33,937 bases of DNA. Origin: Candidatus Faecalibacterium intestinigallinarum (GTDB lineage: Bacteria; Bacillota; Clostridia; Oscillospirales; Ruminococcaceae). The notes under the pieces were generated by a model, which saw only the letters and a list, made by a program, of their open reading frames with translations, was not told the DNA's origin and ran no database searches. The stretch is from positions 1 through 33,937 of the forward strand of contig DXHQ01000080.1 of NCBI GenBank assembly GCA_019113345.1. Reading direction: 5' to 3'. Below are positions 9,074 through 18,389 of the stretch, piece by piece. Positions within the stretch are counted from its first letter, which is position 1; each line of letters begins with the position of its first letter. The position numbers and the translations under genes are program-made.

Positions 9074-10165
9074 ATGCCAATGCAAATGGGTTTCCGCTGG
9101 TATGGCGAAGGCAACGACAAGATCACCCTGGCCGACATCAAGCAGATCCCCGGCGTCACCAGCATCGTCTGGGCCCTGCACAACAAGATGCCCGGCGAGA
9201 TCTGGGAGGTCGATGAGATCGCCGAGGTGCAAAAGCAGCTGGAGCCGTACGGCTTCAACATGGACGTGGTCGAATCGGTCAACGTCCACGACGACATCAA
9301 GATCGGCCTGCCCACCAGAGATCAGTACATCGCCAACTACATCCAGACCATCCGCAACCTGTCCAAGTTCGGCGTGAAGGTGATCTGCTACAACTTCATG
9401 CCCATCTTTGACTGGACCCGCACCGACCTGTTCCACCCGGTGGGCGACGGCTCGACCGCTCTGTACTACCAGAAGGACATGATCCAGAGCGACTACAAGG
9501 CGATGGCCGACTACATCATGAGCTTCACCGAGAAGTACAACATGACCTTCCCCGGCTGGGAGCCGGAGCGGATGGCCAAGCTCGACGAGCTGTTCAAGGC
9601 CTACGCCCCCGTCACCAAGGAAAAGCTGTGGGAGAACCTGAAGTACTTCCTCGAAGCGCTGATGCCGGTCTGTCATGAGTGCGACATCAAGATGGCCATC
9701 CATATGGACGATCCCCCCTGGGACATCTTCGGCCTGCCCCGCCTGCTGACCAGCGCCGAGAACATCGACCGCTTCCTGTCCATGGTGGACGATCCCTACA
9801 ACTGCCTGACCCTGTGCTCCGGCAGCCTGAACGCCGACCCCAACAACAACGTGGCCGACATCATCTACAAGCACTGCGACCGCATCGCGTTCGCCCACAT
9901 CCGCAACGTCAAGCACTTCCCCAACGGCGACTTCTCCGAGGCCAGCCACCGCGACTGCGACGGCGACACCGGCATTCTGGACATCATCAAAGCCTACCAC
10001 GACTGCCACTTCGAGGGCTACATCCGCCCCGACCACGGCCGTCACCTGTGGGGCGAGGGCCCCGGCACCGTCCGCCCCGGCTACGGCCTGTATGACCGTG
10101 CCCTCGGCATCATGTATATGTGGGGCATCTGGGATATGCTGGACAAGCTGGACGGGAACGGCTGA
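9074..10165 (+). CDS. uxuA: Mannonate dehydratase
   Basis: A 363-residue protein of the UxuA family, matching from MGFRWYGEGNDKITLADIKQ to the C-terminal HGRHLWGEGPGTVRPGYGLYDRALG segment. It removes water from D-mannonate to give KDG, in a metal-dependent TIM-barrel. Conserved marks include HMDDPPW near residue 212, LCSGSL near 255, and RPDHGRH near 316. The start ATG follows GGAGAG at a good distance. It is first in a plus-strand series: uxuA, uxuB-like reductase, SDR. With those partners it links D-fructuronate to KDG, which kdgK and eda on the other strand consume. No uxaC isomerase lies in the window. Confidence 0.97.
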   Translation: MPMQMGFRWYGEGNDKITLADIKQIPGVTSIVWALHNKMPGEIWEVDEIAEVQKQLEPYGFNMDVVESVNVHDDIKIGLPTRDQYIANYIQTIRNLSKFGVKVICYNFMPIFDWTRTDLFHPVGDGSTALYYQKDMIQSDYKAMADYIMSFTEKYNMTFPGWEPERMAKLDELFKAYAPVTKEKLWENLKYFLEALMPVCHECDIKMAIHMDDPPWDIFGLPRLLTSAENIDRFLSMVDDPYNCLTLCSGSLNADPNNNVADIIYKHCDRIAFAHIRNVKHFPNGDFSEASHRDCDGDTGILDIIKAYHDCHFEGYIRPDHGRHLWGEGPGTVRPGYGLYDRALGIMYMWGIWDMLDKLDGNG

Positions 10166-10172
10166 CGCCGTT

Positions 10173-10354
10173 CTCCAGGGTGGACCAATTTCTGCGCGCA
10201 GCCGCGCGGCAGAAATTCTTCCCCCCTGGTATCCCCCTTTTGGACAAAATTTGGTGCAGAGTCGCGCACGCGCCGCAAAAGCGGCTTGTACACTCCCTGC
10301 GCCAAATTTCCCTGTTGGTGTCCGTCCCGTCCGCACATGTCAGCCGGGACGGAC
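10173..10354 (+). repeat. Structured intergenic element, copy 1
   Basis: A ~182-bp block that aligns along its length with 12076-12251. It holds three hairpins. H1 pairs AATTTCTG with CAGAAATT (10187-10217), with an inner CGCGC/GCGCG. H2 pairs AAATTTGGTGCA (10247-10258) with TGCGCCAAATTT (10298-10309), enclosing GCCGC-AAAA-GCGGC (10272-10285). H3 pairs GTCCGTCCCG (10320-10329) with CGGGACGGAC (10345-10354). It has no coding gene and fills the gap between uxuA and the uxuB-like gene. It could be a cis-acting RNA, a small-RNA gene or a non-autonomous mobile repeat. Confidence 0.8.
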
Positions 10355-10366
10355 AGATTTTGCATG

Positions 10367-10384
10367 AATCTCCCATGTGAGATT
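10367..10384. promoter_or_regulatory. Inverted repeat before the uxuB-like gene
   Basis: AATCTC (10367-10372) and GAGATT (10379-10384) form perfect 6-bp arms around 6 bp. It lies just before the ribosome site, so it could be an operator or a small leader hairpin. Confidence 0.3.
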
Positions 10385-10405
10385 GGAAAGGGAGCGTATT
10401 TCCAC

Positions 10406-11992
10406 ATGAAACTGACTGACATTGAACACGGCCCGATCAGCCCCGTCTGGGCGGAAAAGGGCTATCAGCTGCCCAAGTTCGACCGCGAGGCCGTCAAGGC
10501 CAAGACCGCGGCCGAGCCCACCTGGGTCCACTTCGGCGCGGGCAACATCTTCCGCGCTTTCCCGGCGGCCATCCTGCAGCAGGTGCTGGACTCGGGCAAG
10601 TATGACCGCGGCGTCATCGTGGCCGAGAGCTTTGACTACGAGATCATCGACAAGGCTTACCGCCCCTACGACAACCTCAGCCTGCTGGTCTGCCTGCAGT
10701 CCACCGGCACCATCGAGAAGAAGGTCATCGCCTCGGTCACCGAGAGCCTGAAGGCCGATCCTCAATTCGCCGAGGACTGGGCCCGCCTGGTCGAGATCTT
10801 CCAGGCCCCCAGCCTCGAGATGGTCTCCTTCACCATCACCGAGAAGGGCTACGGCTTCAGCCCCGCCGACCTCGAGCGCGGCTTCGGCGCACAGTTCGCC
10901 ATGGGCAAGATCACCGCCCTGCTGTATGAGCGGTTCAAGGCCGGCGCCATGCCCCTGACCCTGCAGAGCATGGACAACTGCTCCCACAACGGCGACAAGG
11001 TCAAGGCCGGCGTCTTTGCCTACGCCGAAAAGTGGGCCGAGATGGGCCTCGTCCCCGCCGCCTTCGTCGAGTACGTCAAGGATGAGAGCAAGATCTCCTA
11101 TCCCTGGAGCATGATCGACAAGATCACCCCGCGCCCCGACGCCAAGGTCCAGAAGATGCTGGAAGAGGACGGCTTCGAGGACAACTACACCATCATCACC
11201 GAGCGCCACACCTTCACCGCGCCCTTTGTCAACGCCGAGGAGACCGAGTACCTGGTCATCGAGGATAAGTACACGGGTGGCCGGCCCCCGCTGGAGCTGG
11301 GCGGCGTCATGTACGCCGACCGCGAGACGGTGGACAAGGTCGAGAAGATGAAGGTCTGCACCTGCCTCAACCCGCTGCACACCGCCATGTCCATCTACGG
11401 CTGCCTGCTGGGCTACACCCTCATCAGCGCCGAGATGGCCGACGAGGACATCCGCGGCCTGATCACCAAGATGGGCTACATCGAGGCCATGCCGGTGGTG
11501 GTCGATCCCGGCGTGCTGAAACCGGCCGACTTCATCGACGCGGTGCTCAACCGCCGCCTGCCCAACCCCTTCATGCCCGACGCGCCCCAGCGCATCGCCA
11601 CCGACACTTCCCAGAAGCTGTCCATCCGCTTTGGCGAGACCATCAAGGCCTACAAGGAGCGCGGCCTGGATATGAACGACCTCGTCCTGATCCCGCTGGT
11701 TCTGGCCGGCTACGCCCGCTACATCAAGGGCATCGACGACGAGGGCAAGGCTTTCGAGCCCTCTCCCGATCCGCTGCTGGCTGAGCTGAGCGCCATCGTG
11801 GCTCCCCTCGAAGTCAAGGAAGGCCCGCAGGACTTCAGCTGCCTGAAGGCTCTCTACACCCGCAAGGACGTCTTTGGCGTCGACCTGTACGAGGTCGGCC
11901 TGGGCGAAAAGATCGAGGGCATGGCAGCCGAGCTGTACGCCGGCCCCGGCGCTGTCCGCAAGACCCTGCACAAGTACGTTTCCGCCCGCTGA
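10406..11992 (+). CDS. uxuB: Mannitol dehydrogenase-family oxidoreductase, probable D-fructuronate (mannonate) reductase
   Basis: A 528-residue member of the polyol/uronate long-chain dehydrogenase family. VHFGAGNIFRAF near residue 43 is the dinucleotide-binding start. SMDNCSHNGDKVK near residue 190 and CLNPLHTAMSIYG near residue 320 are the family's Asn/Lys/His-containing active-site segments. Next to uxuA the best fit is UxuB, reducing D-fructuronate to D-mannonate with NADH; a UxaB-like tagaturonate reductase is the alternative. It is about 40 residues longer than typical UxuB. The start is ATG 10406 (MKLTDIE), with AAAGGGAG 11 nt upstream; an open frame continues upstream through the structured element but lacks a ribosome site. 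A strong terminator follows. Confidence 0.88.
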   Translation: MKLTDIEHGPISPVWAEKGYQLPKFDREAVKAKTAAEPTWVHFGAGNIFRAFPAAILQQVLDSGKYDRGVIVAESFDYEIIDKAYRPYDNLSLLVCLQSTGTIEKKVIASVTESLKADPQFAEDWARLVEIFQAPSLEMVSFTITEKGYGFSPADLERGFGAQFAMGKITALLYERFKAGAMPLTLQSMDNCSHNGDKVKAGVFAYAEKWAEMGLVPAAFVEYVKDESKISYPWSMIDKITPRPDAKVQKMLEEDGFEDNYTIITERHTFTAPFVNAEETEYLVIEDKYTGGRPPLELGGVMYADRETVDKVEKMKVCTCLNPLHTAMSIYGCLLGYTLISAEMADEDIRGLITKMGYIEAMPVVVDPGVLKPADFIDAVLNRRLPNPFMPDAPQRIATDTSQKLSIRFGETIKAYKERGLDMNDLVLIPLVLAGYARYIKGIDDEGKAFEPSPDPLLAELSAIVAPLEVKEGPQDFSCLKALYTRKDVFGVDLYEVGLGEKIEGMAAELYAGPGAVRKTLHKYVSAR

Positions 11993-12016
11993 CCGTTAAG
12001 CTGAAAAGCGATCCCC

Positions 12017-12059
12017 GCCCCGCGCTGCGTTTGCTTTGCCGCAGCGCGGGGCTTTTTTT
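12017..12059 (+). terminator. Terminator of the uxuB-like gene
   Basis: A 13-bp perfect stem (12017-12029 with 12040-12052, GCCCCGCGCTGCG and its complement) is followed by seven Ts. Confidence 0.95.
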
Positions 12060-12075
12060 AGCGTACTTTCAGTCG

Positions 12076-12251
12076 CTCCAAGGGGGACCCATTTCTGCGC
12101 GCATCCGCGCGACAGAAATTCTTCCCCCCTGGTATCCCCCCGGGGACAAAATTTTTCAGCGAACCGCGCACTCGTCGCTGGCTCGCACACTCCCGCCGAA
12201 AAATTTCCCTGGCGGTGTCCCGCCCGTCCGTACATGCCGGCCGGGCAGGAC
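12076..12251 (+). repeat. Structured intergenic element, copy 2
   Basis: Second copy of the element at 10173-10354, in the same orientation. H1 is ATTTCTG/CAGAAAT (12091-12119). H2 pairs AAATTTTTCAGCG (12149-12161) with CGCCGAAAAATTT (12194-12206). H3 pairs GTCCCGCCC with GGGCAGGAC (12219-12251 region). In H2 the two G-C pairs of copy 1 are replaced by two A-T pairs, and in H3 a T-A pair is replaced by G-C, so pairing is kept while bases change. The copy lies between the uxuB terminator and the promoter of the next gene, so it is not in that gene's leader. The rest of this 459-bp gap holds only the terminator and promoter. Confidence 0.8.
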
Positions 12252-12339
12252 GGATTGAAAAAGGCGTGCGGATTTATGGTCTGTTCTTGCTCTTTTTATA
12301 GCAGATTATGTACTTGGGATACAAGATGCCGCCCGCGCC

Positions 12340-12368
12340 TTGACATCGGGGCGGCCGGGCGGTATCAT
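12340..12368 (+). promoter_or_regulatory. Promoter of the second SDR gene
   Basis: TTGACA (12340-12345) and TATCAT (12363-12368) are separated by 17 bp. ATACAAGAT (12319-12327) lies 12 bp upstream of the -35, at the same distance as the related repeat in front of eda. Confidence 0.8.
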
Positions 12369-12451: not shown

Positions 12452-13261
12452 ATGTCTGTCTGTACTGCAAAATCCTTTGATCTGACCGGCAAGATCGCCC
12501 TCATCACCGGCGCTTCTTACGGCATCGGCTTCGCCATCGCCACCGCCATGGCCAACTGCGGCGCCACCATCGTCTTTAACGACATCAAGCAGGAGCTGGT
12601 CGATAAGGGCATGGCCGCCTACAAGGAAGCCGGCATCGACGCCCACGGCTACGTCTGCGACGTCACCAACGAGGAGGCCGTCAACGCCTTCATCAAGCAG
12701 GTCACCGAGGAAGTCGGCCACATCAACATCCTGGTCAACAACGCCGGCATCATCAAGCGCATCCCCATGTGCGAGATGACCGCCGCCCAGTTCCGCCAGG
12801 TCATCGATGTCGACCTGAACGCCCCCTTCATCGTCTCCAAGGCCGTCATCCCCGACATGATCGAGCAGGGCGGCGGCAAGATCATCAACATCTGCTCTAT
12901 GATGAGCGAGCTGGGCCGCGAGACCGTCTCGGCCTACGCCGCAGCCAAGGGCGGCCTGAAGATGCTGACCAAGAACATCGCCTCCGAGTACGGCGCTTAC
13001 AACATCCAGTGCAACGGCATCGGCCCCGGCTACATCGCCACCCCGCAGACCGCGCCCCTGCGCGAGATCCAGCCCGACGGCAGCCGTCATCCCTTCGACC
13101 AGTTCATCATCGCCAAGACCCCGGCCGGCCGCTGGGGCGAGGCTTCCGACCTGGGCGGCCCGGCCGTCTTCCTGGCTTCGGAGGCTTCCGACTTTGTCAA
13201 CGGCCACATCCTGTACGTTGACGGCGGCATCCTGGCCTACATCGGCAAGCAGCCCCAGTAA
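12452..13261 (+). CDS. SDR-family dehydrogenase, gluconate 5-dehydrogenase/KduD-like (copy 2)
   Basis: A 269-residue paralogue of the SDR at 1330-2130; long stretches of the C-terminal half are the same or nearly so. Cofactor loop TGASYGIG is at 19-26, catalytic residues are Ser149, Tyr162 and Lys166, and Asp44 after the second beta strand suggests NAD preference. It would reduce a keto-deoxy-aldonate or 5-ketogluconate. Its place after uxuA-uxuB argues for a role in uronate or aldonate use. The start is ATG 12452, 9 nt after CAGGAGGT; an upstream GTG overlaps the site. GTATAC (12441-12446) sits within the ribosome site. It has its own promoter and a convergent-overlapping terminator. Confidence 0.88.
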   Translation: MSVCTAKSFDLTGKIALITGASYGIGFAIATAMANCGATIVFNDIKQELVDKGMAAYKEAGIDAHGYVCDVTNEEAVNAFIKQVTEEVGHINILVNNAGIIKRIPMCEMTAAQFRQVIDVDLNAPFIVSKAVIPDMIEQGGGKIINICSMMSELGRETVSAYAAAKGGLKMLTKNIASEYGAYNIQCNGIGPGYIATPQTAPLREIQPDGSRHPFDQFIIAKTPAGRWGEASDLGGPAVFLASEASDFVNGHILYVDGGILAYIGKQPQ

Positions 13262-18302: not shown

Positions 18303-18389
18303 GCGGATATGGCGGAATTGGCAGACGCGTTAGATTCAGGTTCTAATCGGGGCAACTCGGTGGAGGTTCAAGTCCTCTTATCCGCACCA
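18303..18389 (+). tRNA. tRNA-Leu (anticodon CAG)
   Basis: The acceptor arms GCGGATA (18303-18309) and TATCCGC (18379-18385) pair fully, followed by A and an encoded CCA. The anticodon arm TTAGA/TCTAA encloses the loop TTCAGGT, giving anticodon CAG, which reads CTG, a leucine codon abundant in this GC-rich window. The long variable arm is class II, as expected for tRNA-Leu. GGTTCAAGTCC is the T arm and loop. Confidence 0.97.

Follow-up and report, generated by a model that had tools for sequence, protein, structure and literature searches.

BOX elements of Streptococcus pneumoniae are small intergenic non-coding repeats with stable folds, over-represented between convergent genes, according to the parts of the two sources drawn on here (PMC3049150, PMC10969869). 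Terminal inverted repeats and target duplication are reported for BOX in the same parts (PMC3049150, PMC10969869), and pneumococcal repeats are described as inserting into one another (in part of PMC10969869). SPRITE, from the same species, is a terminator-like repeat near gene 3' ends, and the relevant part of PMC3049150 suggests that it has been co-opted as a terminator. In Porphyromonas gingivalis, the BrickBuilt MITE is intergenic and has no Rfam match; as that source describes it in part, 10/19 instances have rho-independent terminators (and/or polyadenylation sites) predicted at their flanks (PMC4596501). The element described below shares general traits with BOX, SPRITE and BrickBuilt, in that order: small size and stable folds between genes, a terminator-like end behind genes, and no match in Rfam.

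The window analyzed here is the whole stretch of 33,937 nucleotides from Candidatus Faecalibacterium intestinigallinarum (assembly GCA_019113345.1, contig DXHQ01000080.1, forward strand). It contains two similar hairpin-rich blocks, one on each side of a uxuB-like gene (Table 1). Both blocks are very probably copies of a non-autonomous mobile repeat of the BOX/SPRITE kind, a chain of DNA hairpins that nests in terminators and is accompanied by a target duplication as long as one hairpin.

The two copies in the window

The stretches 10173-10359 and 12076-12256 align over their full length in the same orientation, with 92% identity over the first 65 nt and 79% over the last 77 nt. Shuffled sequences fold much less well than either copy (z -6.65 for copy 1, -5.91 for copy 2). 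A first-pass annotation made from the sequence had described two non-coding blocks aligning end to end with three hairpins at matching places, and the alignment and folds bear this out. It had also held that the differences between the copies keep pairing. The changes from GG/CC to TT/AA in HP2 and from T-A to G-C in HP3 are present, but the rule is not general: HP3 of copy 2 has one C-A mismatch at the place of a G-C pair in copy 1. HP2 of copy 2 is weak when folded alone (z -1.41 with RNA parameters, -1.64 with DNA parameters).

Copy 2 is placed between the uxuB terminator and the promoter-like site that belongs to the short-chain dehydrogenase gene. A terminator scan returned 4 sites vs 1.9 +/- 1.5 in shuffles; neither HP3 scored on the plus strand, and one minus-strand site falls inside HP2 of copy 1. 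Both window copies are without a flanking duplication.

Table 1. Features of the two copies and their neighborhood, in window positions.
Feature	Position	Strand	Evidence and remarks
uxuA-like gene (D-mannonate dehydratase)	9074..10165	+	Pfam UxuA 2.1e-147; upstream of copy 1
Copy 1, hairpin at the HP0 position	10156..10173	+	Perfect 7-bp palindrome GAACGGC-TGAC-GCCGTTC across the uxuA stop codon; alone -7.1 kcal/mol, z -5.06 (DNA parameters)
Copy 1, whole core	10173..10359	+	Between uxuA and uxuB; covariance-model match 192.6 bits; absent in 22/22 relatives with both flanks in one locus
Copy 1, HP1	10175..10229	+	Fold, covariation
Copy 1, HP2	10247..10309	+	Fold, covariation
Copy 1, HP3	10320..10354	+	Followed by AGATTTTGC, no clean T-run; no plus-strand score in the terminator scan
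uxuB-like gene (mannitol dehydrogenase family)	10406..11992	+	Between the copies; Pfam on the longer ORF 10286-11992, gene call
uxuB terminator	12017..12059	+	Hairpin 12017-12052 plus T7, directly 5' of copy 2; an inner stem scored by the terminator scan
Copy 2, decayed HP0 (AGCG ... CGCT)	12060..12077	+	Sequence, set against AGCGTGTCG...CGACACGCT of other copies
Copy 2, whole core	12076..12256	+	Covariance-model match 191.4 bits; site lacks the element in 5/5 relatives
Copy 2, HP1	12078..12132	+	Fold
Copy 2, HP2	12149..12206	+	Alignment, fold; weak alone
Copy 2, HP3	12217..12251	+	Followed by GGATTGAAAAAGG, no T-run
Promoter-like site TTGACA-17-TATCAT of the next gene	12340..12368	+	Downstream of copy 2
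Short-chain dehydrogenase gene	12452..13261	+	Downstream of copy 2

Family size and distribution

A search of the source genome with copy 1 gave 75 candidates; 40 were scored, and all 40 match at 75-100% identity. A covariance model was built from 30 copies, with E <= 1e-12 as the family threshold. At this threshold, the source genome has 64 matches, G004 has 73, G016 has 60, G021 has 23 and G014 has 17. Sparser carriers are G013 (13), G024 (10), G001 (7), G011 (3), G002 (2) and G019 (1). Carriers thus make up 11 of the 31 Faecalibacterium genomes, and the other 20 have no match. An order-wide search of 394 genomes under stricter filters found matches in three, all Faecalibacterium (1 of 168 genera).

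An exact-pattern search of named genomes gave 96 stretches, 94 of them in Faecalibacterium: Candidatus F. gallistercoris, Candidatus F. faecigallinarum, strains An121 and An122, and uncultured MAGs. A chicken source is suggested by several of these names, and An121 and An122 are poultry isolates. The remaining two stretches lie on short contigs binned as Pullilachnospira and Gemmiger; the Pullilachnospira contig, 97.8% identical to G021 over 446 nt, is probably misbinned. A search of phages and plasmids with copy 2 gave no match. Several contigs of the source genome end inside an element copy.

The first-pass view that no named RNA family fits agrees with Rfam 15, which has no family at either copy at gathering score; at E <= 5 there are sub-threshold matches only, none convincing at the copies. 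No paper on intergenic, palindromic or interspersed repeats or MITEs of Faecalibacterium was found, as judged by title, and a description elsewhere is possible.

Organization of the element

The core is about 180 nt long, or about 215 nt with its ends, and its parts follow the order HP0-HP1-HP2-HP3-TTTTTTGACAGTCTG. HP0, which starts many copies, reads AGCGTGTCG...CGACACGCT. The arms of HP1 are CCAGGGGGAACCCATTTCTG...CAGAAATTCCTTCCCCCTGG. HP2 is bounded by AAATTT...AAATTT and has a conserved inner part, and HP3 is GTCCC...GGGAC with the loop CGCACATGTCG, often followed by TTTTTTGACAGTCTG. The ends AGCGTGTC (5') and AGACTGTC (3') form a weak inverted pair, identical at 6/8 positions as judged by inspection. 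The alignment is GC-rich; MITEs are typically AT-rich, as the cited parts of two sources have it (PMC10969869, PMC4596501).

A T-run stands behind HP3 in 90 of 123 distinct elements by a crude rule. Such rules were not uniform: AGATTTT of copy 1 counts as a T-run in the placement table described below and does not in the 123-element count. To account for the elements that lack a T-run, the element tree requires at least 7 changes on branches with good support. As a separate observation, TTTTTTGACAGTCTG also occurs after ordinary terminators that have no element (L302, L307).

The element also accepts additional modules. A second repeat of 116 nt has matches in 21/31 genus genomes, some of them without the main element. 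Of 17 stretches picked for a split or weak model match, 15 have extra sequence, this repeat included, separating HP1 from HP2. The source-genome copy C92:3797 has inserts at two places, and a relative (L255) has a plain element at that site.

Empty sites and duplicated terminators

The uxuA-uxuB gap is 239 nt in the window. In all 22 relatives that have both flanks in one locus (30 relatives searched), it is 10-56 nt by the same measure and contains no element. The site of copy 2 is likewise without an element in 5/5 relatives with both flanks. Elsewhere, 51 orthologous pairs were found and 20 inspected: these include empty sites, sites with remnants (L209, L197) and sites occupied in both species; the source-genome copy C69:7471 and L242 share one insertion. 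The sister genomes compared are other species, and no insertion event was caught in them.

Flanks long enough for comparison were available for 114 copies. Direct repeats beyond the 99% quantile of mismatched controls flank 19 of them, against about 1 expected. These duplications are 18-42 nt long and look like terminator hairpins. They occur in 12/58 copies with HP0 and 7/56 without it, and in 4/47 copies of the source genome. Inverted flanking repeats exceed the control in 8 copies, as expected of palindromes. The other 95 of the 114 copies have no flanking duplication above control, which may reflect decay or a second route of insertion.

In the clearest cases, a whole terminator hairpin is duplicated, one on each side of the element, and the T-run of the target stays with the downstream hairpin. 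Where HP0 is present (12 duplications), 0-3 nt separate it from the end of the upstream hairpin; in 9 of these 12, the downstream hairpin begins 7-12 nt after the last aligned T. The loci L059 and L181 are on two contigs of G011, 94% alike over 478 nt, and may represent one event. At two empty sites, relatives have a single hairpin: the L036 site of G014 corresponds in G001 (L180 and L204, which are the same record) to an empty site with one terminator hairpin. At the site of C101:20401, a single hairpin occupies the empty site in 4/5 relatives (G016, G004, G013, G014), and the fifth, G021 (L295), has a longer spacer with an apparent HP3 remnant. The empty sites and target duplications favor the mobile repeat among the options that the first-pass annotation had left.

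Ordinary terminators or spacers could also have been made alike by gene conversion between intergenic regions, without any transposition. The copies do look mosaic, and modules have been gained within an element at a fixed site (C92:3797 vs L255). Gene conversion is nevertheless very unlikely as the source of the family, given sharp empty sites that lack any element, recurring outer boundaries and duplicated target hairpins.

Position and orientation relative to genes

Copies lie downstream of genes in a single orientation, and often they directly follow a rho-independent terminator. Placement was tabulated for 65 copies (the 64 matches and one weaker), using a home-made gene caller seeded with three window genes. 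No copy (0/65) overlaps a called coding gene by > 25 nt. An upstream gene was called for 60 of these copies and for the other 5 none; it is co-directional in 52 of the 60 (binomial p 5e-9). By Rfam, three of the 8 exceptions follow a co-directional RNA unit (the RNase P RNA gene in one case, two tRNAs in another, a T-box leader in the third), which raises the figure to 55/60, and for five of the 60 no co-directional upstream unit was found. Copies C75:6245 and C106:41 may belong to a single locus broken up by contig ends. Orientation of the downstream gene is mixed (30 and 32), and the distance from the stop codon to the element is <= 20 nt in 25/50.

A T-run after HP3 is less frequent in tight intercistronic gaps. 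It is present in 19/22 copies between convergent genes vs 3/9 in tight intercistronic gaps (Fisher p 0.007, on small numbers); for all convergent vs all tandem contexts, p is 0.10. The copy behind the T-box leader has no T-run.

DNA palindrome or folded RNA

The structure of the element is conserved. In the 30 copies of the model, both-sided changes are found at 24/54 pairs. The paired fraction of cells is 97.6%, vs 87.1 +/- 0.5% for shuffles and 31-48% when the structure is slid. A larger set of 123 distinct elements was obtained from 311 profile matches (128 after an end filter, 126 after removal of identical cores, 123 after a length filter). Its 6536 lettered cells comprise 6348 Watson-Crick pairs, 41 G-U, 77 A-C and 70 others. 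On the element tree, 265 double Watson-Crick changes were inferred, together with 31 changes to G-U, 59 to A-C and 50 to other mismatches. The figure of 265 is probably an overcount, given the mosaic look of the copies and a weak tree, in which 68 of the 120 inner branches are open.

Selection on a plus-strand RNA fold should favor G-U pairs. Since G-U is rarer than A-C, DNA palindromes explain the pairing better than an RNA fold does. In 27 tRNAs from the same set of loci, G-U makes up 46 of 587 standard pairs, or 7.8%, vs 0.6% in the element; ARAGORN brackets probably admit standard pairs only, so that only the G-U fraction can be fairly compared in this way. The hairpins differ in this respect: G-U vs A-C counts are 17 vs 5 in HP1, 17 vs 40 in HP2 and 7 vs 32 in HP3, and HP1 alone leans RNA-like. 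The first-pass annotation had read the paired changes as a sign that structure is selected. Conservation of structure holds; selection for an RNA structure is unsupported by these counts, which favor palindromic DNA over a plus-strand RNA fold as the conserved object. The transcribed hairpins may have effects as well.

These counts also bear on a different account, in which the blocks are a functional RNA element at transcript ends (a 3'-UTR or intercistronic stabilizer, a processing site or a small RNA) maintained by selection on its RNA fold. Strong folds and covariation would suit it, as would the fixed orientation after co-directional genes, the presence or absence of the T-run by context, the T-run-less copy behind a T-box leader and the excess of G-U in HP1. 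The overall shortage of G-U argues the other way, and so do the same operon without the element in all 22 relatives and the 20 genus genomes without a match. An RNA element of this type is unlikely.

Candidate mobilizing enzymes

In the draft genomes compared, several of whose carriers are incomplete, the Y1 transposase PF01797 is present in 2/11 carriers (G013, G019) vs 9/20 non-carriers and absent from G000, G004 and G016, which have 60-73 copies. Dispersed intergenic palindromes near 3' ends resemble REPs, which would suit a family of the REP/BIME type with a REP-associated Y1 transposase as its mobilizer. This distribution of the enzyme, together with long target duplications that are unlike Y1 chemistry as generally understood, makes such an origin extremely unlikely.

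The reverse transcriptase domain RVT_1 is found in 3/11 carriers vs 10/20 non-carriers and is also absent from G000, G004 and G016. It would be expected if the element were a retroelement derivative targeting terminator hairpins in the manner of group IIC introns, which are known to insert behind terminators. There is no Rfam intron match at the copies, and group II introns are not expected to give target duplications; with the distribution of RVT_1, this leaves a group IIC-like origin scarcely credible. IS110 (5/11 carriers, the source genome included, vs 5/20 non-carriers) does not track the element either.

No autonomous copy was seen at the 11 sites inspected out of 29 with the 3'-end pattern (six genomes; 420 nt upstream, judged by reading the sequence). 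What stands at these 11 is the element itself, complete, partial or with modules, besides two ordinary terminators and a solo HP3 in inverted orientation. Across the three enzyme families and the 11 inspected sites, no autonomous partner or transposase was identified.

Proposed mechanism and significance

For the mobile repeat, HP3 with its T-run resembles a terminator, and insertion should therefore leave transcript ends nearly unchanged. Copies without a T-run, commoner in tight intercistronic gaps, should be read through. The near-perfect Watson-Crick palindromes would be maintained at the DNA level, probably by the needs of a trans-acting enzyme or by repair in which one arm templates the other. 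A terminator extruded as a cruciform and cut in a staggered manner across its base, with one nick per side, would yield a target duplication as long as the hairpin.

Taken together, these steps would define a mobile class that targets DNA shape and not sequence. The target cruciform would be cut at both bases, so that the duplication is exactly one hairpin; arm-templated repair would hold the hairpins perfect; a terminator of its own would make insertion silent, with a read-through form in operons; and the element would in turn be a landing site for a second hairpin repeat. This complete scheme is put forward tentatively, as a possibility that could well prove wrong in one or more of its parts.

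If this reading is right, gene terminators serve a bacterial repeat family as safe places to land, and insertion duplicates the terminator, an unusual kind of target duplication that is defined by structure. It would also follow that strong covariation, the usual proof of a functional RNA, can stem from DNA palindromes, and that counting G-U vs A-C is of help in telling one from the other. At up to 73 matches per genome, the elements would touch many transcript ends.

Comparison with known systems

Measured against MITEs, the element is small and intergenic (a core of about 180 nt, with 64 matches in the 2.2 Mb of the source genome and 0/65 copies in called coding genes), and its target duplication, seen in 19/114 copies, is unusually long and defined by structure. 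REP/BIME sequences with RAYT, ERIC and Correia elements are likewise dispersed intergenic palindromes that can enter transcripts (ERIC and Correia are mentioned in the consulted part of PMC3049150). Unlike in REP/BIME, the Y1 transposase does not track the element. Group IIC introns also target rho-independent terminators in one orientation; unlike them, the element has no ribozyme match, its distribution is not tracked by reverse transcriptase and a target duplication is present. BrickBuilt differs in being built round a 23-nt repeat, and its duplications, given for three of four copies in the part of PMC4596501 that treats them, vary in length and sequence and are not whole hairpins.

SPRITE, as the section of PMC3049150 on it has it, is AT-rich and consists of a single duplex of 18 bp and a long T-rich tract, with no established target duplication; here there are three or four hairpins, GC-rich, and duplication is seen. 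BOX has the modular plan boxA-boxB-boxC in the corresponding part of PMC3049150, and the element has HP1, optional modules and then HP2-HP3, a likeness compared by architecture only. One extra module here is a repeat with its own copies elsewhere, in contrast to BOX. Unlike BOX as described in the parts cited, orientation follows the upstream gene and the duplicated target is a whole terminator hairpin. The element works like the BOX and SPRITE families, as judged by general features.

Sequences within and apart from the main element

A second hairpin repeat of about 116 nt, running from GGTTGCGGT to CGCAGTCC (example at L111:1453-1568), is located within the main element at locus L111, among loci L040-L055, and in the comparison of L255 with the source-genome copy C92:3797. 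Matches to it occur in 21 of the 31 Faecalibacterium genomes, including some in which the main element is absent. The 3′ end sequence TTTTTTGACAGTCTG is also found apart from full elements, behind two ordinary terminators with no element and behind one solo inverted HP3 (L302 and L307 of genome G021; L326 of G004). These occurrences are possible deletion footprints.

RNA genes and leaders

The C40 copy immediately follows the terminator-like end of the T-box leader. At the RNase P RNA site of the C101 copy, a single hairpin is present in four of five relatives. In an Rfam search of the window, the tRNA gene is the sole match at gathering score.

Coordinates of RNA-associated copies and the tRNA gene
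Feature	Location	Context	Remark
Main-element copy, source contig C40	L100:1211-1691	Between T-box leader and its gene	No T-run
Main-element copy, source contig C101	L013:1089-1720	Behind RNase P RNA gene	Terminator hairpin duplicated
tRNA gene	Window 18303-18386		Rfam match at gathering score

Variation among copies and taxonomic assignment

Several copies, judged by eye, carry a different short palindrome in place of the standard HP0 (C17:19765, C55:434, C70:8754, C73:1931, C101:14160 and C103:3237 of the source genome; window 10156-10173), in some cases with a stop codon within the loop. At L244, from another species and orthologous to source-genome C88:9261, the main element lies in reverse orientation.

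Locus L191 (DVON01000080.1), binned as Pullilachnospira, matches Faecalibacterium genome G021 at 97.8% over 446 nt; the contig's label is probably a binning error.
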